A DNA stretch of 64,000 nt, taken from an uncultured Geobacter sp. Lineage in GTDB: Bacteria; Desulfobacterota; Desulfuromonadia; Geobacterales; CAIOGM01. The translations under genes and the position numbers were made by a program. A model generated the notes under the pieces. That model saw nothing but the letters and a program-made list of their open reading frames with translations. It had not been told where the DNA came from and did not search any database. Where the stretch lies: NCBI GenBank assembly GCA_903857795.1, contig CAIOGM010000075.1:1-64000 (forward strand), written 5' to 3'. Positions 17,955 to 53,891 of this stretch are shown one piece after another. Position 1 is the first letter of the stretch. The number at the start of each line of letters is the position of its first letter.

Positions 17955-17957
17955 TAC

Positions 17958-19109: not shown

Positions 19110-19148
19110 TTCCGCCGCTCACAATATCGACGAGGACTAGCCGACGAA

Positions 19149-21157: not shown

Positions 21158-21162
21158 CCGTC

Positions 21163-22368: not shown

Positions 22369-22404
22369 TATTTTGAATGTCATTTCATCGTAACGGTTTA
22401 TCAT

Positions 22405-26401: not shown

Positions 26402-26824
26402 GTGAAAACTACGTCAAATTCCAACGGCTTCACCCTCATCGAACTGCTGGTGGTCATCGTCATCATCGGGCTCCTGGCCTCCCTCGTTGCCCCGAAGATG
26501 TTCGGCAAAGTCGGCACCGCCAAGGAGAAGACCGCCAAGGCTCAGGTGGAGATGATCGTGACGGCTCTGGACGCCTTCAGGCTGGACGTGGGGCGCTACC
26601 CCACCACCGACGAAAAGCTCGAAGTGCTCTGGAAAGATCCCGGCACGATCAAGGGGTGGAAGGGACCGTACCTCCCCAAACCGGTGAACGCCGACCCCTG
26701 GGAAAATCCCTATTTCTACAAGGCGCCGGGTGCGGACAACAAACCGTTCGACCTGAAGTCGCTGGGCGCCGATGGCAAGGAAGGCGGAGAAGCCGAGAAC
26801 AAGGACATCAGCGCCTGGGAGTAA
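26402..26824 (+). CDS. gspG: Type II secretion major pseudopilin GspG
   Basis: The 140-aa prepilin has a short leader ending KTTSNSNG, cut before Phe by prepilin peptidase, then FTLIELLVVIVIIGLLASLVAP. The globular part has DVGRYPTTDEKL, GWKGPYLPKPVNADPWENPY and the calcium-site loop LGADGKEGGE...DI typical of GspG. I placed the start at GTG 26402 (AAGG upstream), because an earlier GTG at 26351 adds 17 unrelated residues. It forms the shaft of the pseudopilus. OxpG of Geobacter sulfurreducens is a GspG-type pseudopilin of an atypical type II system; whether this gene is its ortholog was not tested. Confidence 0.92.
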   Translation: MKTTSNSNGFTLIELLVVIVIIGLLASLVAPKMFGKVGTAKEKTAKAQVEMIVTALDAFRLDVGRYPTTDEKLEVLWKDPGTIKGWKGPYLPKPVNADPWENPYFYKAPGADNKPFDLKSLGADGKEGGEAENKDISAWE

Positions 26825-26830
26825 CCTACA

Positions 26831-28474
26831 ATGGCCATACGGCTTTTTGGCGAGCTGCTGCTCAAGAACTCGTTTTGCGATGAAGAGACCATCAAGAGAG
26901 CACTGGATATCCAGAAGGGGTATGGCGGGCGGATCGGCTCGATCCTTCTCAACATGGGGGTGATTACCGAAGAGCAGCTGCTGGAGACCCTTTCTCAGCA
27001 GCTCTCCATCCCCTATCTGCGATCGGTGGAAGGGCTGACGTACCTGCAGCTGCCGGTCGATCCCCGCTTCCTGCGCGAACAGTGCATCTACCCCTACAAA
27101 GAAGATGCGACCACCCTGCAGATCCTTACCAACAATCCGCTCAACATCATGGCCTACTCCCTGCTGGAGGGGCTTACCGGCAAAGAGATCCGCCCCTCCC
27201 TGGTGCGCGAGGAGTCGCTGAAACAGCTCCTGGTGGCCGTCGATGAGGAGGTCATCACCTCCGGCGACTACGACATCGACGCCGACGACGAGATCGACAA
27301 GCTCAAGGAGCTGGCGTCGGAAGCGCCGGTGATCAAACTGGTCAACAACCTGCTGACCAAGGCCATGGAGGTTAACGCCTCCGACATCCACTTCGAATCG
27401 CTGCGCGGCATCATGAAGGTCCGCCTGCGGGTGGACGGCATCCTGACCACCGTGGAAATCGTCGCCCAGAACCTGAAGCTGGCGGTGATCACCCGTCTCA
27501 AGCTGATCTCGGGGATGAATATCGCCGAACATCGCATCCCCCAGGATGGACGAATCTCCATGCGGATCGCCGGCAAGGAGATCGACATCCGGGCCTCCTC
27601 GGTCCCGACCCAGTTCGGCGAGAGCCTGGTTTTGCGGCTTCTGGGGAAGGAAGAGATCGACTACTCCCTGGAGAGTCTGGGGTTCTTCCCGGACCATGTG
27701 GAACTGATCTATCAGATCGTCAAAAAAACCAGCGGCGTCTTCCTGACCACCGGCCCCACCGGCTCGGGTAAGACGACGACCCTCTACGCGATTCTTTCGC
27801 GACTCAACTCCGACCGGGTCAAGATCATCACCGCCGAAAATCCGGTGGAGTACGAGTTCAAGGGGATCAGCCAGATCAACATCCGGCCGGAGATCGACTA
27901 TACCTTCGCCGGCGCCCTGCGCAGCATCCTGCGTCAGGATCCGGACATCATCATGGTCGGGGAGATCCGTGACGCCGAGACGGCCGAAATCGCCATGCAG
28001 GCGGCGCTCACCGGCCACCTGGTAGTCTCCACCCTGCATACCAACAGCGCCCTCTCCTCCATAACCCGTCTGCTGGATATGGGGTGCGAACTGTTCCTGC
28101 TCAAATCCACCATCGTCGGCATCATGGCCCAGCGGCTGGTCCGCCGCCTCTGCGACTGCGCGCAACCGGCGCAGTTTCCCGAGGAGCTGCTCCAGGGGTA
28201 CGGGCTGGATGCCCTGCTCCGGAGCAACCCCGGATTTACCGTCTCTCCCCGGTCTCCTGTCGGCTGTGCGGCCTGTTCTGGCAGCGGCTATCGGGGGCGG
28301 ATGGTGATCACGGAGATTGCGCCGTTTACCATGGAGCTGCAGAGCCTGTTCAATGAAGACAGGAGCTTTGACGATATGAACCGGATCGGCCAACGCTCCA
28401 TCCTCCAGGATGGGCTGCTCAAGGCGCTGGCCGGCATGACCACGGTGGAGGAAGTTCTGCGGGTGGCTCATTGA
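26831..28474 (+). CDS. gspE: Type II secretion ATPase GspE
   Basis: The 547-aa protein has an N-terminal MshEN-type domain (residues about 1-150), then the secretion ATPase with Walker A GPTGSGKTT starting at residue 308, the Asp/His boxes, Walker B around DIIMVGEIRD and the zinc-binding cysteine block (CDC then CAAC). It drives pseudopilus assembly from the cytoplasmic face of the inner membrane. It lies 6 nt after gspG and overlaps gspF by 4 nt. Confidence 0.94.
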   Translation: MAIRLFGELLLKNSFCDEETIKRALDIQKGYGGRIGSILLNMGVITEEQLLETLSQQLSIPYLRSVEGLTYLQLPVDPRFLREQCIYPYKEDATTLQILTNNPLNIMAYSLLEGLTGKEIRPSLVREESLKQLLVAVDEEVITSGDYDIDADDEIDKLKELASEAPVIKLVNNLLTKAMEVNASDIHFESLRGIMKVRLRVDGILTTVEIVAQNLKLAVITRLKLISGMNIAEHRIPQDGRISMRIAGKEIDIRASSVPTQFGESLVLRLLGKEEIDYSLESLGFFPDHVELIYQIVKKTSGVFLTTGPTGSGKTTTLYAILSRLNSDRVKIITAENPVEYEFKGISQINIRPEIDYTFAGALRSILRQDPDIIMVGEIRDAETAEIAMQAALTGHLVVSTLHTNSALSSITRLLDMGCELFLLKSTIVGIMAQRLVRRLCDCAQPAQFPEELLQGYGLDALLRSNPGFTVSPRSPVGCAACSGSGYRGRMVITEIAPFTMELQSLFNEDRSFDDMNRIGQRSILQDGLLKALAGMTTVEEVLRVAH

Positions 28475-29673
28475 ACCGTTACAGTTACGAGGGGTTGAGC
28501 AAGAGAGGGGACAAGGTCTCGGGCAAGATGATCGGGGTCAGAGAGGAGCTGGTCAACGAGATTCGCGCCAAGGGAATAATCCTCACCTCGATAACGGAGG
28601 ACCGCAGGGCCATGCGGCGCGGCCGGTACACCCTCAAGGACTTCAAGAACAACACCGAAGAGCTGTACCATCTCACGTCGGCCGGCATCAAACTCGATCA
28701 GGCCATCGCCACGCTGGTCAAGAACTCCCGCAAACAGGCGATACACGACTTCTGGGAAGGGGTGCTGAGCAGGATCAAGGAGGGGCAGCAGTTCTCGGCC
28801 GCCCTGCGGGTCGGCTTCGCTCAGGCGGGGTTCAGCGGCGCGGAGCTCTACATCAATATCCTGGCGGTGGGTGAGGAGATCGGCAACCTGAAAAGCGCCT
28901 TCCGGAACCTGCTGGATTATCTGGAGTTCAAGTCCTCGCTCTACAAGGAGATAAAGTCGGCCATCTCCTACCCGCTCTTCCTGGTCGCCATGAGCCTGGT
29001 CACCGTGGTCATCGTCTGCGGCTTCATCCTCCCCCGCTTCGCCAAGATCTTCACCCCCGACGAGATCAAGAAACTTCCGACCCTCTCCAAGCTGACCATC
29101 GGCTACGGCCAGGTTCTCAACGCCCACTTCCCGCTGGTCATTCTGATTGCGGTGTCGACCATCGCCACCATCGTCTGGCTGGCCACCACACCGGCGTTCG
29201 TCGCCGGCTTCAAGCGGTGGGCCTATACCCTGCCGCTGGTGGGGAACTTCATGATTCTCTCCGACCTGGCCAACCTCTTCTCCTCGCTCGGCTCCATGCT
29301 GGGAGGGGGGGTAGATGTCAGCCGCGCCCTCAAGCTCTCCTCCGCCGTCGTGGGGAGTCCGGAGCTGATGAACCTCCTCTCCGAGACCAACGATGAGGTC
29401 AGAAAAGGGAACAGGATCAGCCAGGTCTGGAGCAGCAACGCCCTGATCCCGGAAGACGCCGTCTCCCTGGTGGTGGTGGGAGAGAACTCGGCCCGGATGG
29501 GAGAGATCTTCGAGACCCTGGGACGACGTTACCTGGACAATTTCAAGACCGACATCGCCCGGGTCCTGGGCCTGCTGGAGCCGTTGATCATCGTCATCGT
29601 CGGCTTCTTCATCGCCCTGGTGGTCATTTCCATCATGTTGTCGGTGATCAGCCTGGGAGATGCGGCCCTGTGA
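28471..29673 (+). CDS. gspF: Type II secretion inner-membrane platform protein GspF
   Basis: The 400-aa protein has two repeated T2SSF domains (about 65-190 and 270-395), each ending in hydrophobic helices such as ISYPLFLVAMSLVTVVIVCGFILP and LLEPLIIVIVGFFIALVVISIML. It starts by overlapping gspE and ends overlapping the next pseudopilin by 4 nt. It forms the membrane platform that links the ATPase to the pseudopilus. Confidence 0.93.
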   Translation: MNRYSYEGLSKRGDKVSGKMIGVREELVNEIRAKGIILTSITEDRRAMRRGRYTLKDFKNNTEELYHLTSAGIKLDQAIATLVKNSRKQAIHDFWEGVLSRIKEGQQFSAALRVGFAQAGFSGAELYINILAVGEEIGNLKSAFRNLLDYLEFKSSLYKEIKSAISYPLFLVAMSLVTVVIVCGFILPRFAKIFTPDEIKKLPTLSKLTIGYGQVLNAHFPLVILIAVSTIATIVWLATTPAFVAGFKRWAYTLPLVGNFMILSDLANLFSSLGSMLGGGVDVSRALKLSSAVVGSPELMNLLSETNDEVRKGNRISQVWSSNALIPEDAVSLVVVGENSARMGEIFETLGRRYLDNFKTDIARVLGLLEPLIIVIVGFFIALVVISIMLSVISLGDAAL

Positions 29674-29909
29674 GCTCCGGCGACCGGGCCGGAAGCGACG
29701 GCTTTACCCTGATCGAAATGCTCGTGGTGCTGCTCCTCATCTCCATCTCCGTGGCCATCGTCTACCCCAGCATGTTCACCATGCGCGACAAGTATGACGA
29801 TCAGCTCAAAGCCGCCTCCGATGAGCAATCAAAAAAGAAAGAAGCCTTCACACGGTTTGTTACCGATGGTCTACCCCATAAAACCTACTCCACCGCCACG
29901 GTCAAATAA
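29670..29909 (+). CDS. Short minor pseudopilin (GspH position)
   Basis: The 79-aa protein has a clear prepilin signal: leader ending GSDG, cut before FTLIEMLVVLLLISISVAIVYPS. The remaining globular part is only about 45 residues, far shorter than ordinary GspH (about 150-170 residues in total). Position between GspF and GspI suggests a reduced GspH. It overlaps gspI by about 44 nt in another frame. A truncated gene is possible, but the frame shows no obvious lesion. Confidence 0.75.
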   Translation: MSSGDRAGSDGFTLIEMLVVLLLISISVAIVYPSMFTMRDKYDDQLKAASDEQSKKKEAFTRFVTDGLPHKTYSTATVK

Positions 29910-30315
29910 CCACGGCTTCACCCTGATAGAGGTGCTGATTGCGACCCTGATCATGGTGCTCTCCATCGTCACCGTCACGGCGGCCATTCGGCAGTTCTCC
30001 CTCCAGCGGCTGAAGCTGGTCGAGTATGAAGCCATCTGCGGCAACGTCCTCTCCCTGCGAGACAACTTGATGAACCGCACGCTCAGTAACAACCTTCGGG
30101 AGAGCGGAAAACTGAACGGCAGCGACTACCATTTCCACTGCTCACAGGTGGAGAGCAGCTACAGCTACGTCTATGACGCGGAAATGGGGGGGGGTACCAA
30201 CACCGGTTATTTCATCATCACCCTCTACAAGATTAAGCTCGAAACAGAAGGGAAAGAGTTTGAGTTTTTCAAGACCCAGTACAAGAAGCGCCCGGGCATC
30301 GGTGAAGAGTTCTGA
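29866..30315 (+). CDS. gspI: Minor pseudopilin GspI
   Basis: The 149-aa protein has leader MVYPIKPTPPPRSNNHG, then FTLIEVLIATLIMVLSIVTVTA as the cut prepilin helix. I chose ATG 29866 inside the end of the preceding gene; an in-frame upstream start would give an unlikely long leader. It would cap the pseudopilus with GspJ and GspK. The family is variable beyond the first helix, so the letter I comes from the order of genes. Confidence 0.8.
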   Translation: MVYPIKPTPPPRSNNHGFTLIEVLIATLIMVLSIVTVTAAIRQFSLQRLKLVEYEAICGNVLSLRDNLMNRTLSNNLRESGKLNGSDYHFHCSQVESSYSYVYDAEMGGGTNTGYFIITLYKIKLETEGKEFEFFKTQYKKRPGIGEEF

Positions 30316-30925
30316 CGGCTTTACGCTCCTGGAACTGCTGGTGGCCATCACCATCTTCTCCCTGGTGATCGGCATGGCCATGTTTTCCCTGCGCTACAGC
30401 TTCGGCATGCTCCGCCACCTGGACGCCCCCTTTGCCGAGGATACCCAGCGGCTATGCCGGCTGAGGGATTGCATCGCCTCGACCTTTTTTTATGTCACCG
30501 AACAGAGCGATCTCTTCAACAGCTCGAAGAGTTACCGGACGCTGTTCATCGGCGACCCGGACAGCATGACCTTTGTCTCCGTAAAGCCCCCCTCCGCCAC
30601 GGGTCCTGCCCTCTGCAGGTTATTCAAACGCGACGATACGCTGCTGCTGGAAGAGTCACCGCTCTATGGCGAGGGAAGCAACTACCGTACACCGCTTTTT
30701 ACGGAGAAGGGCAGGAGTGAAACGGTGATCATGACCCAGGTCATCGATCTTAAACTCGAGTACTTTCAGCAGGAGACGATGTTGACGTCGTTACGCGACG
30801 ATATCCCGGGCATGGTGCGGCTGAGCGTGACCACCGATACGGGAACCCGGGAGCTCTTCATTCGTATCCCCGCTGATTTCAACGACAAGAAGAGACTGTT
30901 CCAGGCAACCCATGAAAACAGCTGA
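30302..30925 (+). CDS. gspJ: Minor pseudopilin GspJ
   Basis: The 207-aa protein starts at GTG 30302, overlapping the gspI stop. Its leader is short (VKSSDG), followed by FTLLELLVAITIFSLVIGMAMFSLR. The globular domain with LIFIGDP-like strands and RELFIRIP matches the length and layout of GspJ. It ends inside the start of gspK (14-nt overlap). Confidence 0.82.
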   Translation: MKSSDGFTLLELLVAITIFSLVIGMAMFSLRYSFGMLRHLDAPFAEDTQRLCRLRDCIASTFFYVTEQSDLFNSSKSYRTLFIGDPDSMTFVSVKPPSATGPALCRLFKRDDTLLLEESPLYGEGSNYRTPLFTEKGRSETVIMTQVIDLKLEYFQQETMLTSLRDDIPGMVRLSVTTDTGTRELFIRIPADFNDKKRLFQATHENS

Positions 30926-31841
30926 CCGGCGCCACCAGCAGGGGTCGATCCTGATCGTCGTCTTGATCCTGATGATGGTGACGGTCTCCCTGGCGCTCTA
31001 CGCCGTGTCACTTTCCCGGGATTGTGTCGCCACCTCCCGGCAACTGCTGGACAACCTGCAGTGTCGCCTGGAATCGGGCTCGGTGATAGAAAAGATAAAG
31101 TACCTGGGCGCCATCGGCCGTTTCGGCCCCTCGTACCTGGAGAGTGTAAGCGTCAACAAGGAGTTCCCCCTGCAGATGAATATTCGCGGCGAACCGATCA
31201 CCGTGGGGAACAGCGAAGTTCGCTTGATCGACAGCGGCGGCAGATGCGGCCTCTGGCCCCCTAACCCGGAAATGGTCAAGAGGATGGTTCTCGCGGGAGG
31301 GGGGAGTCCGGAAGAGGGAGCCGTCGCCGCGGACAGCCTCCTTGATTGGGTAGACGCGGACGATCTAAAGCACCTGAACGGCGCCGAATCGTTCTACTAT
31401 CAGTCGGATCACTCCCTGGGCTATCTCCCGAGAAACAACCCCTTCATCCAGATGGTGGGGGAACTGGAGCTCATCCGAGGGTTCAGGGGGAAGGTCTTCG
31501 AGCTTGTCAAGGGCGAGATAGTGGAGACGGTGAGCGGCAAGATCAACTACAACACGGCCGATCCACTCATGCTGGCGGCCCTGCTCAATATCGGCGCCGA
31601 CAGGGCCGCATCGCTGGTAAAGCTCCGAAACAGCAGGGGTTTTATCACCGAGGCCGAGATCCTCGCCCAGACGGGAAATAATTTGACTTTAGTGGATGAA
31701 TACATTACAAGTGTTCCTTCCATGACGCTGGCCGTGGATATTCGCACCCGGATCGGCGATGCGGGTGATGCGGTAAACGCCATCATATCGTTCAAACCAG
31801 GCAGGGAAAAGGCCTTTGTTGTCGAGAAATACAGTGAATAG
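30912..31841 (+). CDS. gspK: Pseudopilus tip protein GspK
   Basis: The 309-aa protein has a basic leader (MKTADRRHQQG) and a hydrophobic helix SILIVVLILMMVTVSLALYAV. This prepilin lacks the usual Glu at position 5 of the mature protein, as GspK does. A helix-hairpin-helix-like part follows (INYNTADPLMLAALLNIGADRAASLVKLR), typical of the T2SSK domain. It would be the pilus tip with GspI and GspJ. Confidence 0.87.
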   Translation: MKTADRRHQQGSILIVVLILMMVTVSLALYAVSLSRDCVATSRQLLDNLQCRLESGSVIEKIKYLGAIGRFGPSYLESVSVNKEFPLQMNIRGEPITVGNSEVRLIDSGGRCGLWPPNPEMVKRMVLAGGGSPEEGAVAADSLLDWVDADDLKHLNGAESFYYQSDHSLGYLPRNNPFIQMVGELELIRGFRGKVFELVKGEIVETVSGKINYNTADPLMLAALLNIGADRAASLVKLRNSRGFITEAEILAQTGNNLTLVDEYITSVPSMTLAVDIRTRIGDAGDAVNAIISFKPGREKAFVVEKYSE

Positions 31842-32874
31842 CGGTGAGAGCGGCACAGATGGCCCTTCCTGGAAAAATTACCTGGGATTAGTCGCCCTCA
31901 TCCCCGTCGAGGAGAGCTATCTTAGGGTATTCGACAAACCAAAAAAGGTGCGGTTGAACCGGCAGGTCATCGATTTCAACTATGCCGACCTCTCTCCCTT
32001 CAAGAACGGCGACTTCCTCTTCTATCAGACCGAGAGCAAGATCTACCTCTGGTACCTGAAGCACTCCCTTGCCGACAGCGCAAAGACTCACATCCCCGAA
32101 GGGTATCTGCAGTATCGTACGTTCCGCAACCGCAAGGAAGCGGTGATCCTCCAACCCCGGGGGGGGGCGGTCAACGCCCTCGTCATCAAAGGGGGAGAGT
32201 TGCTGGCGCAGTTGACCCTGCGCGGTGAGTCGCGAAGGGAGCAGATTCTCCAACTCCTGAAACGGGAATTCACCCTGCAAGAGCCCGAGATGATCACCCT
32301 TGAAGAGGCGGCCCGCCTCTCCATCAGCATCCCCGACATCACCGCGTTTACCCATATAGAGATCAAGCCGCTGGAGCTTCTCGAAAAAGCGGTTGCGCTC
32401 CTCAAGGTCCCCCTCATCGTTTTCCTGCTCATTTCGGCCGGCTTCACCATCTACGAATCCACCCGCCTGGAGGCGGCCGTGGAGGCGAAGAAACGGACCC
32501 TGGCATCCTTAAAACGGGAGAACGGGCCGCTCATTACCATCATAGAACAGCAGCGGGGTCAGAACCGGTACTGGCAGGAGTTCATCTCCCGGGAGCGAAA
32601 CTACCCCGATTACTACAGCTCCCTGACACGGCTCACCAGCCTGATCAAGAAACAGAACGGTTACCTGCACAATGTGGAGTTCAACGACAACCGGTTCACC
32701 ATAATCGCCGGGCTGAAGGTCACCGAGGCGGTCATCATCAAGGAGCTGCTCGCCACCGGGATCGTCGAAGACGCCAAGGTCGTCACATCGGTAAAAGACG
32801 CCACCAAGCCCGATTATTCCATCTACACCCTGTCACTCACCCTGCGCCCGCGGCAGAAAGAGGTGAAGAAGTGA
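31834..32874 (+). CDS. Type II secretion assembly protein GspL-like (inner membrane)
   Basis: The protein is 346 aa from GTG 31834 (352 aa from TTG 31816); both starts overlap the gspK end. A cytoplasmic region of about 200 residues is followed by one membrane helix (VPLIVFLLISAGFTIYES) and a coiled-coil/ferredoxin-like periplasmic domain, which is the layout of GspL and of fused PilM/PilN-type proteins. Its place between GspK and GspM-like genes supports GspL. Primary sequence similarity is weak. Confidence 0.75.
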   Translation: MNSGESGTDGPSWKNYLGLVALIPVEESYLRVFDKPKKVRLNRQVIDFNYADLSPFKNGDFLFYQTESKIYLWYLKHSLADSAKTHIPEGYLQYRTFRNRKEAVILQPRGGAVNALVIKGGELLAQLTLRGESRREQILQLLKREFTLQEPEMITLEEAARLSISIPDITAFTHIEIKPLELLEKAVALLKVPLIVFLLISAGFTIYESTRLEAAVEAKKRTLASLKRENGPLITIIEQQRGQNRYWQEFISRERNYPDYYSSLTRLTSLIKKQNGYLHNVEFNDNRFTIIAGLKVTEAVIIKELLATGIVEDAKVVTSVKDATKPDYSIYTLSLTLRPRQKEVKK

Positions 32875-33407
32875 AAGATAGATCGCTCCTCCTGCTGCTG
32901 CTGGTCCTGACCGTGGTCTATGTCTTTTACCTCAAACCCCAGCGGGAGAAGAGCGACCTCCTCAAGACAAAACTCTCGGTGCTTGACAGTGAGATCGCGA
33001 TGCAGAACGCGGTAAAGAGCGACCATCAGGTAATCGAGCAGAGCCTGAAAAAGAGCAGCGCCCCCGCCGCCGCCAACGACAGCCGTCTTTATCCGGCGGG
33101 CGAGAGCAACAGCCTGGCCATGGTGGATTTCCAGGAGTTCATAAAAAAGAGCGCTCTTACCAGCAAACTGCAGATCATCACCTCCACCTGGGGTGAACAG
33201 TCCAGCGACGCGGTCACCGGACAGACCAGATACCCCTTGAGCATGACGGTCAAGGGAGCGCCGTCTGACATCGATACCTTCTTGAGAACCATCCTCTACG
33301 GACGTCTCCATCTGAAGATAGACAGGGCAAGCTTGACAAAAACTCAGGACCAGCAGCTGCTGTTGAACTTTTCGCTGATGGCGTTCAAAAGGGACGGCAA
33401 AAGTTGA
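32871..33407 (+). CDS. Type II secretion GspM/PilO-like protein
   Basis: The 178-aa protein starts at GTG 32871, overlapping the previous stop by 4 nt. It has one N-terminal helix (LLLLLLVLTVVYVFYL), a coiled-coil region and a ferredoxin-like fold ending in VKGAPSDIDTFLRTI and LLLNFSLMAF. This is the layout of GspM and PilO, which partner GspL/PilN on the inner membrane. Assigned from topology and gene order. Confidence 0.73.
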   Translation: MKDRSLLLLLLVLTVVYVFYLKPQREKSDLLKTKLSVLDSEIAMQNAVKSDHQVIEQSLKKSSAPAAANDSRLYPAGESNSLAMVDFQEFIKKSALTSKLQIITSTWGEQSSDAVTGQTRYPLSMTVKGAPSDIDTFLRTILYGRLHLKIDRASLTKTQDQQLLLNFSLMAFKRDGKS

Positions 33408-33955
33408 ACCGGCGCCTTTCTCTCATACTGATTCTCCTCTCCGCGCTGGCGGCGACCTGGTACAACGTCGGGCTGCTCAAGAAGAAAGCGGAGTACAGCG
33501 TCCCGGCGGTGGCCAAGGTCCCCACCATGGAACCGGCGCCGCTCCTGGGAAGCGCCATGCCCGCCAAGAGTGACCTCGCATCCGTTGAGCTCTGGAACTT
33601 CAATCCCGGCGGCGCTCTTCCCAATCTTAAAGAGCTGTTCAAACCGTTTTATTCCCTCAGCAGATCCGGCCATTTCGATTCGCTGCAGCGTTCTGACCGC
33701 CCTCAGGAGCAGTGGGAGTTCCAGGGGGTGCTGGTACGCGGCGCCACCTACCGGGCGCTCTTCTACAACACCGCAGCCAAGAGGCTCAGGAACGTGGGGA
33801 GCGGAGAGAAGCTGGACGAACAGCTGAAGGTAGTGGCCGTAGCGGCTGCCGCCGTGACCCTGGAAACAAAAGGCGAGAAGAAACCGATCCGGTACAAACT
33901 ACAAATCTTCAATTCAAACAGGGATTTATATGCAAAGAAGCGGAAAATGCCCTAG
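33404..33955 (+). CDS. Type II secretion GspC/PilP-like inner-membrane protein
   Basis: The 183-aa protein starts at TTG 33404 with a 4-nt overlap. One membrane helix (LILILLSALAATWYNVGLL) is followed by a proline-rich linker and a small beta domain with WEFQGVLVRGATYRALFYN...IRYKLQIFNSN. That domain resembles the homology region of GspC/PilP, which links the inner-membrane complex to the secretin. There is no PDZ domain, unlike classical GspC. It overlaps the secretin gene by about 26 nt. Confidence 0.7.
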   Translation: MNRRLSLILILLSALAATWYNVGLLKKKAEYSVPAVAKVPTMEPAPLLGSAMPAKSDLASVELWNFNPGGALPNLKELFKPFYSLSRSGHFDSLQRSDRPQEQWEFQGVLVRGATYRALFYNTAAKRLRNVGSGEKLDEQLKVVAVAAAAVTLETKGEKKPIRYKLQIFNSNRDLYAKKRKMP

Positions 33956-36176
33956 AGGCATTGCACTGTTGCTTGTTCTGCCGCTGCTCATGGTCGGTTG
34001 CGCATCCTTTAACAAGATCAAGCCCCCTCCCCCATCACCACCGTATTTTAAGGAGGTCTACGAGACCTCTAAAAACGCCAAGTTCCCTGATGCGGGGCTA
34101 GAGGGAGCTGCCGCTCCGGAGGCGACCGGGACCAAGGAGGGAGCTACTACGGCGCCCGAGCCCCCCAAGCCCCAGGTCAGGATCATCAACATCCCGAATC
34201 CTCTGGTCAGAGAGACGGTAAAGGCGCCCGGGGAGAAGACCCCCCTGCCGAGCCTCACTCCAGGAGCAGCCACCCCCCAGGCCGCCGCGGACGAACTACA
34301 GAAGCCTATCGAACTCTCGGCCCAGGCAGCTGCCGGGGACGTGCAGATCCTGGTGGAGAACATGCCGCTCTACGATTTCGTCAACGTGGTGTTCGGCGAG
34401 ATTCTCAAGATCAATTACACCATCTCCCCGGAGGTCCAGTCGGCCCAAGAACGGATCACCCTGAACATGAACCAGAAGATTCCGGGTAAGCAGTTCTTCC
34501 CCTTTGCCGTCGATCTGATGCGCAAGAACAACCTGGACGTCAGAGAAGATAACGGCGTCATCTCTATCAGCAAGAAGCCGAACCGGGCAACAATCGATCA
34601 GATGGGGCCGTCGTCGGAAATCTACATCGGGGAGCTCCCCCCGGGGCTGCCGCCCCATAGACGGGTGACCCTGATCATGTCCACCAACTATGTCCCCGCC
34701 CCTCAGATCCTGCAGATCATCCGACAGGTGCAGATTTTCGGCGGCGACGTCAAGACCGAGGTGTTGCAGGGGGTCGGCCAGGCTATGGCCCTGACCGGCA
34801 CCGTCTCCTCACTGCAGAAGGTGACCGAGCTCTTTCAGCAGCTCGACCGGATCACCTTCGCCAAGAGGGATTTCAATTTGATCTACCTGGATTACATAAA
34901 CGTCGGAGATTTCGACAAGAAGATCAAGGAGGTGCTCCCGGTGATGGGGATTCCCATCGCCTACATGCCCTCCGATCCCGGGCTGCTGACCATCCCCTTC
35001 GAGAAGATCAATGCGCTCCTCATCGTCACCGCCAAAAAAGAGTGGGTGGATGCGGTCCGGCTCTGGAAGGGGAAGCTGGATGCCGTAGAATCCATGGGGG
35101 ACGAGATGCAACTGTTCGTCTATCTCCCCAAGAATCGGCCCGCCGCCGAACTGGTGGAGGTACTGAAAGCGGTCTCCAGCGGCGGCATCGTGCCGGCCAT
35201 AAGCGGCGGCAGGAACCCGTCGCAGCAGCCCGCAACGGCCACCTCGGCGCCGGGGGGGAAGTCGTTCACCGCGGTCCTGGACAAGGGGCGTAACGCCATC
35301 ATCATCTCCGCCAACCCCACAAACTTCAAGCTGGTGCACAACATCCTGGAACAGCTGGACACCCAGCCCAAGCAGGTCCTCATCGAATGCACCATCGCCG
35401 AGCTGACGCTCACCGATCAGCTCCAGTTCGGCCTTGAATGGTACATCAAGCAGAACATAAACAGCAACAAATACGGTGATTTCGCGGGGGTCATCAGCAC
35501 CCTGGGGGGACTCAATCTGGGCGGCGCCGGTCTGAACTACACCATAACCAAGCTGTCCGGCGATTTTCAGGCCAAGATTAATATGTTCGCCAAGAAAGAC
35601 CTGATCAACATCATCTCCACCCCCCATATAGTCCTCCTGGACGGCAAGGATGCGACCATCAACGTCGGAACCGATGTCCCCATCGTCACCGCGGAGATGA
35701 CCGCCGCGGACCTGGGGAGCACCTCCACCTCCACAGGGGCCACCACTCCCAGCATCTTGCGCAGCGTCCAGTACCGGACCACGGGGGTGACACTCAAGGT
35801 CAAGCCGGTGGTAAACTCCGACGGCGTCGTCACCATCGAGATCAACCAGGAGCTGAGTGAGGCGCAGATCAACAGCGTCTCCACCATAGATTCCCCCATG
35901 ATTCTCAAGCGAAGCATCAGTACGACGCTTGCGGTAAACAGCGGCGAGACGGTGCTCCTGGGCGGGCTCATCAGCACCAACAAGAGCCAGGGGGAGAGCA
36001 AGGTCCCCTTCCTGGGAGATATCCCCATTCTCGGCCGGTTCTTCAAGACCGACTCCACCGGCACCAAGAAGACCGAGCTGATCGTGCAGCTCACCCCCTA
36101 CATCCTGAACGACTTGGGACAGCTCGATGAGATCACCAAGCGATTCAAGCAGGATGTCTTCCTCAAGGGGAACTAG
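33930..36176 (+). CDS. gspD: Type II secretion secretin GspD, lipoprotein-type
   Basis: The 748-aa outer-membrane channel has a signal peptide with lipobox LMVGC (Cys near residue 24), a proline-rich linker of about 90 residues, N-domains (VQILVENMPLYDFVNVVFGEILKINY and NALLIVTAKKEWVDAV), and the C-terminal secretin domain with ISTPHIVLLDGKDATINVGTDVPIV and SGETVLLGGLISTNKS...VPFLGDIPILGRFF. An N-terminal lipobox and long linker are unusual for GspD, which normally needs a separate pilotin; a lipidated secretin could target itself. It ends the operon before the transglycosylase gene. Confidence 0.92.
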   Translation: MQRSGKCPRGIALLLVLPLLMVGCASFNKIKPPPPSPPYFKEVYETSKNAKFPDAGLEGAAAPEATGTKEGATTAPEPPKPQVRIINIPNPLVRETVKAPGEKTPLPSLTPGAATPQAAADELQKPIELSAQAAAGDVQILVENMPLYDFVNVVFGEILKINYTISPEVQSAQERITLNMNQKIPGKQFFPFAVDLMRKNNLDVREDNGVISISKKPNRATIDQMGPSSEIYIGELPPGLPPHRRVTLIMSTNYVPAPQILQIIRQVQIFGGDVKTEVLQGVGQAMALTGTVSSLQKVTELFQQLDRITFAKRDFNLIYLDYINVGDFDKKIKEVLPVMGIPIAYMPSDPGLLTIPFEKINALLIVTAKKEWVDAVRLWKGKLDAVESMGDEMQLFVYLPKNRPAAELVEVLKAVSSGGIVPAISGGRNPSQQPATATSAPGGKSFTAVLDKGRNAIIISANPTNFKLVHNILEQLDTQPKQVLIECTIAELTLTDQLQFGLEWYIKQNINSNKYGDFAGVISTLGGLNLGGAGLNYTITKLSGDFQAKINMFAKKDLINIISTPHIVLLDGKDATINVGTDVPIVTAEMTAADLGSTSTSTGATTPSILRSVQYRTTGVTLKVKPVVNSDGVVTIEINQELSEAQINSVSTIDSPMILKRSISTTLAVNSGETVLLGGLISTNKSQGESKVPFLGDIPILGRFFKTDSTGTKKTELIVQLTPYILNDLGQLDEITKRFKQDVFLKGN

Positions 36177-36182
36177 CAGCTG

Positions 36183-36773
36183 ATGCAGCAGGCAGCCGCG
36201 ATAACAGCTATTTTGTTCACTATTTTTACCGGCGCCGCCTTCGGCGATGAGCCGCCCCCCTCCCCGTCCGCCTGTTTTCAGCAGGCGGCGGAGCGGCACA
36301 ACATTCCCGTGGAACTCCTGATAGCAGTGGCTGAGACCGAGAGTGGTCTCTCACCCTTGGCCATGAACCAGGCAGGCGCCGCCATCCTGCCCCGCAGCAG
36401 AGGGGACGCCGAGGCGGTGCTGCGGCGGATCGCCGGAGAAAGGGCCACCTTTGATGTGGGGATCATGCAGGTGAACCGCTGGTGGTTTGAAAAGTATGGT
36501 GAGCCATATGAGAAAGGGTTCGATGTCTGCTTCAACGTGGATTTCGGGGCCAAGATCCTCGCCATGGCCATCAAGGAGCGCGGCTTCACCTGGGAGGCGG
36601 TGGGACGTTACCACTCCCCCACCGGGTGGCGGCAGAGCGCCTACTCACGCAGGATCTTCGCCCGACTATCGCGCATCCTGGAGAAGCGTCGGGAGATGCC
36701 GCTCCAGGAGTTGCTGGATCGCAAGCTGAGTAAGGCAACGGTGGTTAGTTCCTCGGGTTCCGATTGGCACTGA
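36183..36773 (+). CDS. IagB/PilT-like lytic transglycosylase
   Basis: The 196-aa protein has a signal peptide (residues 1-21) and an SLT/lysozyme-like domain: ACFQQAAERHNIPVELLIAVA, catalytic Glu in ETESG (near residue 53), DVGIMQVNRWWF and the last part VCFNVDFGAKILAMAIKERGFTWEAVGRYHSP. Such enzymes cut peptidoglycan locally to let secretion machines pass. It begins 6 nt after the secretin stop, so it most likely serves this type II system. Confidence 0.87.
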   Translation: MQQAAAITAILFTIFTGAAFGDEPPPSPSACFQQAAERHNIPVELLIAVAETESGLSPLAMNQAGAAILPRSRGDAEAVLRRIAGERATFDVGIMQVNRWWFEKYGEPYEKGFDVCFNVDFGAKILAMAIKERGFTWEAVGRYHSPTGWRQSAYSRRIFARLSRILEKRREMPLQELLDRKLSKATVVSSSGSDWH

Positions 36774-37301
36774 TAATATCCAATACGTAACTACTCAGGT
36801 CTGTCGCATAAGCGTAATCATAACTCCCCCTGTCCCCCTCTTGTCTCAAGAGGGGGAACGATTCTCCGCCAAATTCCCTTAGTATGTCCCTCCCCTTAAG
36901 TTAAGGGGAGGACGGGAGGGGTTACGGTAAGCGGCTATGAAGGAGTACTCTCAGATTTCACGTCTCACCTGGACCGTTACCGTTTACTGAGACCGGCATC
37001 GCTGCCCCCTCATCCGGCCTTCGGCCACCTTCTCCCTCCAGGGAGAAGGGAGAAACATTCCCTCTCCCTGGAGGGAGAGGGTTAGGGTGAGGGGGATGAT
37101 TGCCATAAAATCGGTAAGATGCCATCTTAGCGTCTTGAAGCGGGCTCCCTTCCCCTCCACGCGGGGGGAGGTTGGGAGATAAAGGGAGCTTGTCGTCACA
37201 GAGTAACTAATCTGTCGAAGTAGAACTATCCCGCACGTAGAATTACCAATTCGGGTTCCGATTGGCGCTACTACCAACACAACAAGGAAAGGAAACACGA
37301 C
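36774..37301. repeat. Gene-free 528-bp region packed with palindromes, flanked by 16-bp direct repeats
   Basis: TCGGGTTCCGATTGGC occurs at 36753-36768 (end of the transglycosylase gene) and again at 37251-37266. Between them are a 10-bp inverted repeat at 36834-36856 (CCCCCTCTTG/CAAGAGGGGG), an 11-bp one at 36889-36911 (CCTCCCCTTAA-type), and a longer C/T- and G/A-rich palindrome at about 37003-37105 with two nested hairpins. I see no coding potential. It looks like intergenic repeat insertion with target or neighbour duplication. Confidence 0.7.
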
Positions 37302-38015
37302 ATGAAAAAGACTCTTCTGCTGCTGGCCCTCACCCTGCTCATCAATTCCACCGCCTTCGCCGCGGAGGCGGTAAAAACCGACGAGCAGAAGACCCTGTAC
37401 GCTGTCGGCCTCTTCCTGGCGCGACAGCTTGCCCCCCTTGACCTGACCCCGGGCGAAATGGAGACGGTACAGCAAGGGCTGCTGGACGGCTTCAAGGGGA
37501 AGCCTTCTGATGTGGATATAAATGCGTACGGCCAGCAGGTCTGGCAACTCACCACCGACCGCCGTCTGGCGAGAGGGCGGAGAGCGGCGGCAGCAGGAAA
37601 AACATATCTGGATAAGGCAGCCTTGGAAAAAGGGGCGCAGAAGAGCGCAACCGGAATGGTCTATCTATCGTTAAAGGAAGGTGAAGGCGCCTCACCAACA
37701 ATGACCGACCGGGTGAAGGTGCGTTACCGCGGCTCGCTCCCCGATGGCTCCGAGTTCGACAGCTCCTACAAGAAGAATATGCCGACTGAAATCGGAATGA
37801 ACGTCATGATCGCCTGCTGGTCGGAAGGGCTCCAGAAGATGAAGGTCGGGGGTAAGGCAAGGCTCGTCTGCCCGCCCGAACTCGCCTACGGAGAAATGGG
37901 AAAAGATGACCTGATTCTCCCCGAGGCCACGCTGGTTTTTGAGGTGGAATTGCTGGATATCGTCAAACCCGAGGAAAAGAAGCCGGGGGAGAAAACCCTG
38001 GGGCGGGATAAATAA
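37302..38015 (+). CDS. Exported FKBP-type peptidyl-prolyl isomerase (Mip-like)
   Basis: The 237-aa protein has a signal peptide (MKKTLLLLALTLLINSTAFAA), an N-terminal alpha-helical dimerisation region (about 25-110) and a C-terminal FKBP domain (about 112-222) with VKVRYRGSLPDGSEFDSSY, WSEGLQKMKVGGKARLVCPPELAYG and LVFEVELLDI. It helps fold exported proteins around proline. AAGGAAAGGAAAC lies before the ATG. It sits between the secretion operon and the large exported protein, so it may assist the folding of secreted clients. Confidence 0.9.
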   Translation: MKKTLLLLALTLLINSTAFAAEAVKTDEQKTLYAVGLFLARQLAPLDLTPGEMETVQQGLLDGFKGKPSDVDINAYGQQVWQLTTDRRLARGRRAAAAGKTYLDKAALEKGAQKSATGMVYLSLKEGEGASPTMTDRVKVRYRGSLPDGSEFDSSYKKNMPTEIGMNVMIACWSEGLQKMKVGGKARLVCPPELAYGEMGKDDLILPEATLVFEVELLDIVKPEEKKPGEKTLGRDK

Positions 38016-38018
38016 ATA

Positions 38019-38045
38019 TTGACTCCGTTTTGAAATTGCTATAAA
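38019..38045 (+). promoter_or_regulatory. Weak candidate promoter before the 711-aa exported protein
   Basis: TTGACT (38019-38024) and TATAAA (38040-38045) are separated by only 15 nt. They lie in the 282-bp gap 38016-38297, which otherwise holds no gene. The gap also contains an AGGAGGGTGAC stretch followed by a nine-codon reading frame; I do not claim that frame as a gene. Confidence 0.25.
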
Positions 38046-38297
38046 ACTTGGAACCACAATTTACCAGCTTGCGCAGCCGCTCATGAGTAAACGCCATAAT
38101 AGGGCATGAGGGCTCATAAAGGTGGCCGGCATCAACCGCTACATCGAGATGGATGGTCCAAAACGCAGTTCATACGATAAACGATTTTCTTAAGAAAGGA
38201 GGGTGACAACACAGAGATCTCAACACAGTATGGTAACAAAGAGTGTCCATGAGTAATAATGGAAAACTGAAGCCCACACAACACGAGGAGGAACAGA

Positions 38298-40433
38298 ATG
38301 AACAAACGTAAGGTATTGAGAAGCATAGCCATGGCAGCCGCGATCACGTCGCTGGCTACTTCAGCGTACGCAGGGGCCCAGGCCTGTTTTGAATTCAAAA
38401 AAACAACTGCTCCGTTTACTCTTTCAAAACTGCCGGACAATCAGATAACGGCTATCGTGAACGGCGGCAAATGCGCTCCGCAGTCTGACGTACTTGCAGT
38501 CGCCTATGAATTGGGCACGCACGAACTTCTTAATTTGAGTGCAACCAAGAACCTGGATCTCACCAAGAATAAGTTCAATATCATCTACATCCCGACGACC
38601 AACATCCCGGTTAATACGGAAATCCGCTTCGTACTCACCGGTGGTGACTGGGCAGATGGTAATGTCATTTATCTGCTCATGGAAGACCCGACGACCAAGG
38701 CTCTGACCCCGGTTGCAACCACAGACTCTGCGACCGATTGCTTCACAAGAGCCGGTGGCCCCGTTGCCTGCTGGCCGAAACAGGCCGGTGCTGTTCCCTA
38801 CATCCGCTTCGTGACAAAGATCGGTGAAATTCCGGCTGGCGCCAGGCTGGTGTTTTCCACAAGAAGCGATTCCCTCGTACCGCCGACTATCGTAGCCAAT
38901 GACCCGGTTGTCTGTACCCCCCCCGATTACAGGGACAACGTACCTGCGCGGAAAATCACCATTGCCGCCACCTGGGCACAGAACTTCTCCTCACCGGGGA
39001 TTACTTATGAAGGTGGCGTTAGTCAGGACGTGTTTACTGTCGCCACAATTACCCGTCAGTTCAAGCACCAGTACCAGGCGAGCGCCATCCCGGGCAAGGT
39101 ATCGTTCCTGAATCGCAACTTCTTCACGGAGAATATCGTGAACGGCGGCGTTGATGTGGCCACCAAAACCCAGCTCATCCATAAGGCCACGTTCACCAAC
39201 GATGCCCTCTCATTCGATTTCCCTGTCGCACTTAGAGATGATACGACTGGTGGTGTTCCGGATCAGATGCTTGTCACCTACGCATCTACTCGTGATCTCA
39301 ACTCCGGACCGACACCGGCCTATATGGCTGTTGTTGCCTATGATGTCTGGACAGACGGCGGCGCTTCCGCTGACACGTTCAGCGCCCCTCTTAAACGTAG
39401 ACCGATGACTTTAAACGAAGAAGGCGTGATCTCCAGCGCCACCCCTTCCTTTGTGAACCGCTTCTACGGCTCACAATTCTACAACGCAGCCGGCGGCTCT
39501 AAAGATGTGTACTTCGTCCTGGAGAATCGCTCCACCAATAATGGCGCCAATGTAACAAAAGCCAATGACAGCGCTGTCCCGACTCAGAACCCCACGGAAC
39601 CGTCCAAGCCATACACCGTCGTTAACACCACGGATGCCGACGGCAACAGGGTTCAGTCGATAGTCTATACCGGCACTCCCATCGCCCCGGTTTATTCCGC
39701 AAAGAATTCCGATGGCAAGGTAACCAGCAACGCCAACACGCCGTACAACATGTACGCCGATTACAAGATCACCATCAATTCGATTCTTGATTTCGGTTAC
39801 GGAACTGATCCCTCTGTTCCAAGTAAGTTTCGTGGACTCACCACCGTCCACACAAATCCTGTTGCCGCTTGGTCGCAGCAGGAAGAGCAGGATCTCTGCG
39901 CAACCACCTATGACCTCTTCAGCGTAGGCGCAAGCGGAGCGGTTCTGAAAGTACCGTACCTCTATCACACCGCAACTGGCGGCAACAGCTTCGTTAAGAT
40001 CACCAACGAAGAAGAACTCAACACCCTGCCTGCTCATGTCTATGGCCGTTTCTTCGTAGAAGGGACTTCAGCCGCTAGCAACGTGAACGGGATCTACTGC
40101 GACAGCGTCAACTTCGGCAAAGACAACTTCGGTGACGAGCGTTTTGAAGTTGCAGCTCGCTCCTCCGTTGTGATCACCAGCGCCAATATGCTTGACGCCA
40201 TCACCAAGACCCAGAACGGCGGTCCCTACTGCGCGACATTTGCCGATGCAGTTGCAAAGAACAGCGGTCGCTTCACCGGCATCTTCTACGTAAACGCTCC
40301 TGCCCCTTCGGTTCAGGCTGTAGCCGTACAGAAGAACGTTGCCGGTCCGAGCACCGAGCGGGTCATCCCGGTCTTCAAGCAGACCCAGGAAGGCAGCGTC
40401 TTCGGAAACCAGGCGACTCCTTACAACAACTAA
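38298..40433 (+). CDS. Abundant-type exported protein of unknown function (surface-layer or secreted candidate)
   Basis: The 711-aa protein has a signal peptide cut near AYAGAQA (residue about 26) and no transmembrane or lipid anchor. The mature part is Thr/Asn/Ala/Val-rich and beta-rich, with eight cysteines that could form disulfides. Near-ideal GAGGAGGAACAG before the ATG and a strong terminator after it suggest high single-gene expression. It follows the type II secretion operon, the transglycosylase and the FKBP isomerase, so it is a plausible secretion substrate or S-layer-like protein. I recognise no family domain; the function is inferred only from composition and context. Confidence 0.85.
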   Translation: MNKRKVLRSIAMAAAITSLATSAYAGAQACFEFKKTTAPFTLSKLPDNQITAIVNGGKCAPQSDVLAVAYELGTHELLNLSATKNLDLTKNKFNIIYIPTTNIPVNTEIRFVLTGGDWADGNVIYLLMEDPTTKALTPVATTDSATDCFTRAGGPVACWPKQAGAVPYIRFVTKIGEIPAGARLVFSTRSDSLVPPTIVANDPVVCTPPDYRDNVPARKITIAATWAQNFSSPGITYEGGVSQDVFTVATITRQFKHQYQASAIPGKVSFLNRNFFTENIVNGGVDVATKTQLIHKATFTNDALSFDFPVALRDDTTGGVPDQMLVTYASTRDLNSGPTPAYMAVVAYDVWTDGGASADTFSAPLKRRPMTLNEEGVISSATPSFVNRFYGSQFYNAAGGSKDVYFVLENRSTNNGANVTKANDSAVPTQNPTEPSKPYTVVNTTDADGNRVQSIVYTGTPIAPVYSAKNSDGKVTSNANTPYNMYADYKITINSILDFGYGTDPSVPSKFRGLTTVHTNPVAAWSQQEEQDLCATTYDLFSVGASGAVLKVPYLYHTATGGNSFVKITNEEELNTLPAHVYGRFFVEGTSAASNVNGIYCDSVNFGKDNFGDERFEVAARSSVVITSANMLDAITKTQNGGPYCATFADAVAKNSGRFTGIFYVNAPAPSVQAVAVQKNVAGPSTERVIPVFKQTQEGSVFGNQATPYNN

Positions 40434-40456
40434 TCAGCAACTCATTCATTGATGTG

Positions 40457-40484
40457 AGCCCCGCTTCGGCGGGGCTTTTTTTTT
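40457..40484 (+). terminator. Strong intrinsic terminator after the 711-aa protein
   Basis: AGCCCCGC, a TTCG tetraloop and GCGGGGCT form a perfect 8-bp stem followed by a nine-T run. Confidence 0.93.
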
Positions 40485-40550
40485 GCGGTAGATATTGTTT
40501 TTGATTTCTGGTAAAAAGATTAACGTGATCATCACGCAAATGAAGCGGAG

Positions 40551-40638
40551 AGACCTCCCCCTTTGAAAAAGGGGATTGAGGGGGATTTACTTAGCTAGGC
40601 AAATCCCCCCTACCCCCCTTTTCCAAAGGGGGGTCTTT
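40551..40638. repeat. 88-bp palindromic intergenic element (MITE-like)
   Basis: The outer arms read AGACCTCCCC...GGGGGGTCTTT. Inner arms GGGGGATTT and AAATCCCCCC surround TAGCTAG. Arms and loop together form one long, imperfect hairpin between the terminator and the collagen-like gene. It is similar in character to the C/T-rich palindromes at 36.8-37.1 and 45.9 kb. Confidence 0.7.
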
Positions 40639-40740
40639 AAATTCCTCGACAGCTTTTCAGCAGCAGGTCCCAGAGGCAGTCCCACCAAAGTTAAGGTGAA
40701 CAACAGCGTCATCCATGACGCAGTGAAAGGAATGAGGAGT

Positions 40741-42222
40741 ATGAAAAATGTTTTCGTCGCACTTGGTTGTTGCCTGCTGCTGGCTCTGTCTAATGCATCT
40801 GCAAACACCATTATCAGTGGGGACCTGAACATCAGAGATGGTGGAAGCATCGTCTTTCCTGATGGATCTTCTCAAGGAAAAGCATTTACCGGCCCAGTCG
40901 GCCCAATCGGCCCCGCCGGCCCTGCCGGCCCAATCGGCCCCGCCGGCCCAGTCGGACCGGTTGGCGCCACAGGTCCGACAGGCGCCACAGGGTTAACTGG
41001 TCCAACAGGTCCGGCCGGCGCAACCGGATCGTGCGGAACGACCTGGGAGACCCCGGTATCGTCGGTCACCGCCGTACCAAATCACTCCTATGTTGCATCC
41101 AGTGACACACAGCGCGTAGAGATCTCTCTGCCATCCAGCGCCTCAGTGGGAGATTTGATTTATGTTACCGGCTCCGGTCTTGCCGGTTGGAGTGTTAAGT
41201 ATCCCGCACTCTCGGTAATCAATGTCTCAGGGGTAACCACAACGGGATCCTGGGCTGCCCGGGGACCAACCGCGTATTGGACCGGCATAGCCTCTTCCGC
41301 AGACGGGGCCAAGCTTGCGGCAACGGCCAGCAGTGGCCAAATCTATACATCCACCGATTACGGAGTGACCTGGACGCCACGGGACACCACCCGGAATTGG
41401 ACGAGCATCGCCTCATCCATCGACGGGTCCAAACTGGCGGCAGTGGTGTATGGCGGCCAAATCTATACTTCCGCAGATTCAGGATTGACCTGGACGCCAC
41501 GGGAAACCGTACAATTATGGAATGGCATAGCCTCTTCCAGTGACGGGACCAAATTGGCGGCAGTGATGAACGGTGGCTATATCTACACATCCACCGATTC
41601 CGGCGCCACCTGGGCGCCAAGGGGAACCTCACAGGGACTCTCACGAAATTGGGGAGGGATTACTTCTTCCGCCGACGGGGCCAAGCTGGCGGCGACCATT
41701 CCCAGTGGCAATATCTATACATCCACCGATTACGGCGCAACATGGGCAGCACAGGCCACCTCACAGAATTGGCTTGCGATCACCTCCTCCAACGATGGGG
41801 TCAAACTGGCTACGATTGTGAGCGGTGGACAGCTCTTCACATCCCCGGATTCCGGTGCAACGTGGACGGCTCACGAAAACTCTCGTCAATGGACCAGTAT
41901 CACCTCTTCCGCTGATGGAAGCAAACTGGCAGCAACGGTGGACAACGGCCAGATATACACCTCCTTCGATTCAGGTGTGACGTGGATTCCGAGGGAAACG
42001 GCCCGGAAATGGTCCAGCGTCACCACTTCGGCTGACGGAAGCAAATTGGCGGCGGCGATGTATTTCGGTCAAATCTATACAGCCAACAACGGAAACAAGA
42101 CAGCCCTCTTTGGCGGTGAAAACGACGCCATAACATTTATGTGCATCGCAACTTCACCAGTTTTGAAGTTCAAGATAATGAGCACAACAGGAACCGGGAT
42201 TACCGCAGTTGAAACACCCTAA
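40741..42222 (+). CDS. Collagen-like Gly-X-Y protein with a seven-repeat propeller
   Basis: The 493-aa protein has a signal peptide (residues 1-21), a short head ([19 protein letters not shown]), then 15 Gly-X-Y triplets ([10 protein letters not shown]...GATG, DNA 40891-41025). After a linker come seven repeats of about 40 residues, each with the pattern W-x2-I-x-S-S-x-D-G-x-K-L-A and then G-x-I-Y-T-S-x-D-x-G-x-T-W, the Asp-box/BNR style. Seven repeats fit one seven-bladed beta-propeller; the last lacks the final blade strand, and the third has four extra residues. I chose ATG 40741 (AAAGGA 9 nt upstream). A surface trimer stalk with a propeller head is inferred; ligand unknown. Confidence 0.87.
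40891..41025 (+). repeat. Coding Gly-X-Y repeat tract
   Basis: Fifteen consecutive GGN-NNN-NNN triplets encode [15 protein letters not shown] and GLT units. At DNA level the first half repeats GGCCCAGTCGGCC and GGCCCCGCCGGCC blocks almost exactly, so copy number could vary by slippage. Confidence 0.85.
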
Positions 42223-42341: not shown

Positions 42342-42467
42342 TCCCGGCAGTTGCACAGGCGCACTCAGTCTCAGCGGCACGATCTCTGTTTTCAGTAATC
42401 TGTTGTGCGGGCGTTGATTTCTTGGTATGGTGCGCCTGAATTCACAGCTGTATACGCAACGGATGAC

Positions 42468-50792: not shown

Positions 50793-50841
50793 ACAATAAT
50801 AGTCACACAGCCACCGATCTTTCCAGGTACAGAGGAATTTC

Positions 50842-53856: not shown

Positions 53857-53891
53857 CCAAGGTGTCGATACATCATTTAAGGAGACAGATA

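Follow-up and report, generated by a model that had tools for sequence, protein, structure and literature searches.

What does a complete type II secretion system (T2SS) export when its operon lies inside a polysaccharide locus? The question is raised by a 64,000-nucleotide stretch (the window) of contig C75 in the 4.05-Mb genome of an uncultured Geobacter sp., where the T2SS genes are followed, at some distance, by a gene for an exported protein of 711 residues. On the evidence of sequence and of analogy with published systems, we consider it moderately likely that the operon is a dedicated exporter of the surface-layer (S-layer) type and that the 711-residue protein is its main client; its probable task is to build a coat, not to export proteins for metal reduction. 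We favor this reading because the operon is complete and enclosed by polysaccharide genes, because its arrangement recurs in Geobacter sp. OR-1 and in a metagenome-assembled genome (MAG) of an uncultured Geobacteraceae, because the client in a more distant genome, G224, matches the S-layer family Slr4, and because published parallels exist; the strong terminator that the 711-residue gene has to itself was counted on the same side. A preliminary description of this DNA had proposed a dedicated module with the 711-residue protein as client, together with an FKBP isomerase and a collagen/propeller protein. The module and its client are retained as the best reading, on other grounds than those first given, while the FKBP and propeller proteins are unsupported as parts of it.

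The T2SS operon runs in the order G-E-F-H-I-J-K-L-M-C-D-slt on the forward strand from 26402 to 36773 and is tightly coupled, with spacings of -116 to +6 bp from gspG (26402) through slt (36773), so that neighboring genes overlap or nearly touch (the start of J is uncertain). Matches to curated families identify GspG, E, F, K and D. The prepilin N-methylation motif is carried by H, I and J, whose specific NCBIfam cut-offs are not exceeded, and L, M and C are named mainly from gene order and orthologues, the model matches being weak or nil. The features of the operon and its proposed client are as follows:

26402..26824 (+), GspG-like major pseudopilin; Pfam T2SSG 6.7e-35, TIGR01710 above cut-off, 84-86% identity in two orthologous loci, reading frame open from 26351.
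26831..28474 (+), GspE ATPase with an MshEN domain; T2SSE 2.4e-123, 76-84% identity in orthologous loci.
28471..29673 (+), GspF inner-membrane platform protein; T2SSF 5.3e-40, 79-83% identity in orthologues.
29670..29909 (+), GspH-like minor pseudopilin of 79 residues; N_methyl 4.9e-8, equally short in OR-1 and the MAG.
29866..30315 (+), GspI-like minor pseudopilin; N_methyl 1.4e-6, 47-54% identity in orthologues.
30173..30925 (+), GspJ-like minor pseudopilin, start codon uncertain; N_methyl 8.5e-8, 47-48% identity in orthologues.
30912..31841 (+), GspK minor pseudopilin; T2SSK_1st 2.8e-9, 48-57% identity in orthologues.
31816..32874 (+), GspL-like protein, named by position; orthologues 47-50%, without a T2SS family match.
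32871..33407 (+), GspM-like protein; weak T2SS_GspM_XpsM match (3e-4), orthologues 44-47%.
33404..33955 (+), short GspC-like protein of 183 residues, no PDZ domain detected; weak HofP match only, about 185 residues in both orthologous loci.
33930..36176 (+), GspD-type secretin of 748 residues, predicted lipoprotein; Secretin 4.7e-44, TIGR02517 323 bits against a cut-off of 351.
36183..36773 (+), SLT-type lytic transglycosylase (slt); SLT 5.9e-14, 66-67% identity in both orthologous loci.
38298..40433 (+), 711-residue exported protein, proposed main client and coat subunit; Sec-type signal, no family match, same position as the post-gspD proteins of three other loci.
40456..40477 (+), strong intrinsic terminator directly 3' of the 711-residue gene; GAGCCCCGCTTCGGCGGGGCTT, then a T run.

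All genes of the module set out in the preliminary description are present at these coordinates, and the transglycosylase, FKBP, 711-residue and collagen/propeller genes do follow gspD. The peculiarities that it had remarked are also borne out. The secretin begins with MQRSGKCPRGIALLLVLPLLMVGC, a lipobox, which is kept together with the motif PPYFKE across three loci; the GspC-like protein shows no PDZ domain; and GspH has 79 residues. As the length of GspH is retained in both orthologous loci (about 78-79 residues), it is not a truncated pseudogene. The usual globular domain is apparently absent from this pseudopilin in all three genomes (29670-29909 in the window, L037:408-644, and about 7690-7940 in L040). 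None of the window's genes was identified as a GspN, pilotin or prepilin peptidase, in agreement with what had been said of the last two; the peptidase and pilotin were not looked for elsewhere in the genome. Neither an Rfam search of the region 15-56 kb nor a GspL search of viral contigs gave any match.

Which T2SS is this? The preliminary description had suggested OxpG, the atypical Geobacter system, or a sister of it, and in its fullest form this would have the operon, as OxpG or a close relative, exporting a multicopper or redox protein for the use of insoluble acceptors. The Geobacter-like genome and a multihaem cytochrome gene in the window (2424-5693) speak for that idea; no multicopper oxidase was identified among the neighboring genes. 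A Pul/Oxp-like locus is found on another contig, C140, where genes for E, F, PilMNOP-like proteins, a 790-residue secretin that is a lipoprotein with tetratricopeptide repeats (TPR) and two pseudopilins, all named from sequence inspection, adjoin ftsE, ftsX, envC-like and ctpA-like genes. We identify it as Pul/Oxp-like because it matches the published description, including the location of pul sets near cell-division genes in Geobacteraceae (PMC3543383). A canonical Gsp system, in the order C-D-E-F-G-H...K-L-M, lies on contig C128 beside glmS/glmU-like genes, and a Tad-type locus on C50. Among the 39 secretins of a tree, those of the window, OR-1 and the MAG group together with 100/100 support and, joined by five distant members (G643, G224, G208, G273 and G460), make up a 99/99 clade separate from 29 canonical GspD proteins (100/99); the tree has long branches, and the program warned that some joins may be false. 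OxpG was rejected on the C140 locus and on the placing of the window secretin outside both other T2SS clades, which refutes the identity and leaves the redox-export idea with hardly any probability. Identity with the canonical Gsp system was likewise rejected, given the sub-threshold TIGR02517 score, the separate clade and the canonical set on C128. All three systems are type II machinery, yet the two others differ from the window operon in contig, neighbors and secretin clade; the genome thus has, in the window operon, a third T2SS, which is not OxpG.

The preliminary description did not remark on the surroundings of the operon, which is enclosed by a Wzx/Wzy polysaccharide locus of about 15.3-54.7 kb. 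After the T2SS the locus resumes with a pyruvyl transferase, glycosyltransferases, a DsbC-like protein, wcaJ, wzi, an SLBB-rich wza-like gene and an undecaprenyl-diphosphate phosphatase-like gene:

15340..16545 (+), Wzz-like chain-length protein, first gene of the locus; Pfam Wzz and GNVR, 62% identity to Wzz of the OR-1 locus.
16569..26306 (+), Wzx flippase (16569), glycosyltransferases (17958, 19149, 20372, 22405, 23215, 25386) and Wzy-like polymerase (21163); Pfam for 16569 and 17958, NCBIfam for 19149, 20372 and 21163, and 22405-26306 by sequence inspection.
42405..43454 (+), polysaccharide pyruvyl transferase; PS_pyruv_trans 2e-20, weak CsaB match (6.7e-6) below cut-off, same Pfam family in the OR-1 and G224 loci.
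46937..47752 (+), DsbC/G-like thiol isomerase with a CxxCH motif; Thioredoxin_2 and DsbC_N, 67.6% identity in the OR-1 locus.
47804..54701 (+), WcaJ-type initiating transferase (47804), Wzi (49182), SLBB-rich Wza-like export protein (50842) and undecaprenyl-diphosphate phosphatase-like protein (53670); NCBIfam and Pfam, identity to the OR-1 locus 52% for WcaJ and 56% for Wzi.

A possible role for the DsbC/G-like protein is that of folding helper for the client. Its CxxCH motif is of the haem type, and the gene is kept with the T2SS locus in OR-1 as well (L036:3844-4665). The Wza-like protein (50842-53856) is unusually long at 1004 residues, with some five SLBB stretches, and has no counterpart in the 70 kb of the OR-1 locus examined. 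At the other end of the window, the cytochrome gene mentioned above (reverse strand) encodes a protein of 1089 residues with MtrC/MtrF-like and Geobacter CxxxxCH motifs.

A secretin of the window type occurs in three genomes of the 141 examined in the order, namely the window's own, OR-1 and the MAG. OR-1 carries the same eleven T2SS genes inside a polysaccharide locus that also holds slt (66%), a DsbC-like gene (68%), wzz (62%), wcaJ (52%) and wzi (56%), and a protein of 510 residues with a Sec signal is encoded directly after gspD. The gene that directly follows this OR-1 client (L036:11147-12115) encodes a probable lipoprotein with many TPR repeats, for which no window counterpart was seen. 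The MAG operon has glycosyltransferase genes upstream and slt downstream, after which a Sec-signal protein of at least 723 residues runs off the contig. Distant members of the secretin clade adjoin polysaccharide genes wherever the contig shows the context: in G460 dTDP-rhamnose genes stand beside the secretin locus, and in G224 gspC-gspD (its GspD 38-40% identical to that of the window) are followed by a Wzm/Wzt-type ATP-binding cassette (ABC) transporter and then by a Sec-signal protein of 483 residues, in a locus with WecA-like, ligase-like and pyruvyl transferase genes. Another member of the clade, G273, has an operon (L055) of the order D-G-E-F-H...L-M-C, with gspD first, on a contig that stops short of any client or polysaccharide region. 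A contig scan made with two peptide patterns only returned the two known relatives and an unrelated secretin, and its silence on other phyla means little.

A large Sec-signal protein thus follows the T2SS genes in the window, OR-1, the MAG and G224, with the FKBP gene intervening in the window; what is conserved across the orthologous operons is the position of this protein, its sequences being divergent. This recurrence bears on the idea that the operon is an accessory T2SS, acquired with the polysaccharide island and exporting enzymes encoded elsewhere, beside which the 711-residue gene would be an unrelated neighbor. Such an origin would suit the patchy distribution (3/141), a 711-residue protein found in the window genome only, and the FKBP gene and gaps that part this gene from the operon. 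We nevertheless regard it as improbable, as a large Sec-signal protein follows in each of the three other loci with sequence there and two of these clients are homologous across a wide taxonomic distance: the 483-residue G224 protein and the 510-residue OR-1 protein match with E 2e-59 (32-35% identity, 35% over 473 residues).

The G224 protein also matches the Pfam family Slr4 (S-layer) end to end, with 31.1 bits against a cut-off of 25. For this reason we rate as unlikely, though less so than the accessory system, a dedicated T2SS of the polysaccharide locus whose clients are matrix or adhesion proteins (the 711-residue protein, perhaps the collagen/propeller protein) that form no ordered S-layer. 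It draws on the same contextual evidence, and it would account for a 711-residue protein not detectably related to Slr4 and for the adjacent collagen/BNR protein; Slr4 itself is described as a major biofilm matrix component (PMC7821379). Besides the S-layer match of the positional counterpart in G224, the absence of the propeller gene from the other loci tells against it.

Several observations weigh against the S-layer exporter that we favor, and most concern the 711-residue protein (eight cysteines, isoelectric point 6.0; its gene is preceded by a AGGAGGAA ribosome site). It has no Pfam or NCBIfam match and fails the Slr4 test, with no match to PF19526 up to E 5. Pairwise BLAST, profile comparison and shuffles gave no significant full-length similarity to the other three clients, and a C-terminal profile of those clients, run against 1326 open reading frames, did not find it. 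Weak resemblance to the OR-1 client is confined to its last 60 residues (shuffle p 0.004, not corrected, and spotted by eye before testing). An AlphaFold model made without relatives reached a mean confidence (pLDDT) of 30.7 and was not used. Codon use of the gene is unexceptional, and the path from slt to it leads across a 528-bp gap, the FKBP gene and a 282-bp gap. Finally, the likeness to the Aeromonas, Pseudoalteromonas and Delftia systems discussed below is one of gene layout and not of sequence comparison. Common ancestry of the 711-residue protein with the other clients was rejected, as BLAST, profile comparison, shuffles and the C-terminal profile give no convincing link. The role proposed for it is drawn from position, signal peptide and precedent, not from homology.

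Two further expectations did not hold. The gene had been called highly expressible, and its codon adaptation index relative to rpsA (0.645) is not above that of its neighbors. The proposed check, that the 711-residue family should accompany this type of gspD, fails in its stated form, since the protein occurs in one genome, the window's own, of 249 in the class. Against solved structures it gave chance-level cadherin matches only. No Slr4 match was found in the window genome; a search of the order was equally silent, but so were the control genomes, so that absence is not shown.

How can the exporter be kept while the client differs? Between OR-1 and the window the secretins share 58% identity and the clients no detectable relationship, whereas the OR-1 and G224 secretins are 39% identical and their clients 35%, which suggests that the coat gene may be exchanged independently of its exporter. 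Extreme divergence of the 711-residue protein is the alternative.

The FKBP protein encoded between slt and the 711-residue gene has FKBP_C and FKBP_N domains, and the collagen/propeller protein combines collagen repeats with BNR/sortilin repeats. Neither gene occurs in the OR-1 and MAG loci, which makes it unlikely that they belong to the system. For the propeller gene a start at 40741 is more probable than one at 40576, the upstream part translating into a CCCCCTTT..AAAGGGGG-type repeat; inverted repeats of the CCCCTTT...AAAGGGG type (40556-40640) lie before and inside the 5' end of the frame opened at 40576, whose N-terminal extension is spurious.

For an S-layer exporter of this kind, the 711-residue precursor would cross the inner membrane by Sec, its signal peptide being seen and its cleavage presumed, and would fold and form disulfides in the periplasm with DsbC-like help. 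Slt would open the peptidoglycan, probably for the T2SS machine itself. A lipid anchor of its own, in place of a pilotin, may bring the secretin to the outer membrane, the lipobox being the visible part of this proposal, and a GspE-driven pseudopilus would push the folded protein through the secretin. Exported in bulk, the protein could assemble on the possibly pyruvylated polysaccharide of the surrounding genes, there to form or join an S-layer-like coat held by that polysaccharide.

A wider picture can be offered tentatively, at somewhat less than even confidence: a conserved frame (T2SS, slt, dsbC-like, wzz, wcaJ, wzi) in Geobacterales and relatives, in which coat protein and glycosyltransferases are swapped as cassettes independently of the exporter, with the 711-residue protein a new S-layer family and coats lying outside the cytochromes of metal-reducing cells. 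If the S-layer reading itself is right, certain relatives of Geobacter are covered by a protein coat that has a T2SS of its own, of interest in a group whose respiration depends on outer-surface cytochromes contacting minerals. The S-layer T2SS layout of Aeromonas, Pseudoalteromonas and Betaproteobacteria would be extended to Desulfobacterota, and exporter and coat protein would evolve separately, the OR-1 coat protein being closer to that of a distant relative outside its order than to the window's.

Is the system new? To call it previously undescribed, as had been done, is too strong, since S-layer T2SSs within O-antigen clusters are already published (PMC4413209, PMC4483657). Plasmid records searched for the reference S-layer T2SSs gave no useful match. 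Gram-negative S-layers attach to surface molecules such as lipopolysaccharide (PMC7821379), and Gram-positive S-layer proteins are anchored to pyruvylated polymers through SLH domains (PMC6801904). No SLH domain was found here; the pyruvyl transferase genes of the window, OR-1 and G224 loci are a suggestive hint of anchoring, and such genes are also common in polysaccharide loci.

Among the closest layouts is that of Aeromonas, where spsE-F-G-H-I-J-K-L-M-orf2-spsD-vapA occupies the middle of the wb O-antigen cluster (PMC4413209, PMC4483657). As in the window, a whole T2SS operon set stands in a polysaccharide cluster with one surface-protein gene downstream, and a short protein precedes a long secretin in both (Orf2 of 166 and SpsD of 743 residues, against 183 and 748). 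Wzm/Wzt-type genes at the G224 site are a further resemblance. The Aeromonas cluster is of the ABC O-antigen type, whereas the window locus is of the Wzx/Wzy type and includes Wzi and a Wza-like protein. The window differs further in having gspG at the head of the operon, linked slt and dsbC-like genes, a GspH of 79 residues against 123-131, and an unplaced client of 711 residues.

In Pseudoalteromonas, slr4 directly follows a T2SS operon (PMC7821379; PMC11094555). In P. tunicata the genes for G, E, F, K, D and others stand directly upstream of one Sec-signal surface protein, as here, and its family, PF19526, is matched by the G224 counterpart and not by the 711-residue protein; the accessible portion of PMC7821379 does not describe the slr4 T2SS as enclosed by a polysaccharide locus, unlike that of the window. 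In the Betaproteobacteria Paracidovorax and Delftia, members of another phylum, npdA follows 12 gsp genes (PMC10765051), and this set of secretion genes upstream of one surface-protein gene is again the layout of the window.

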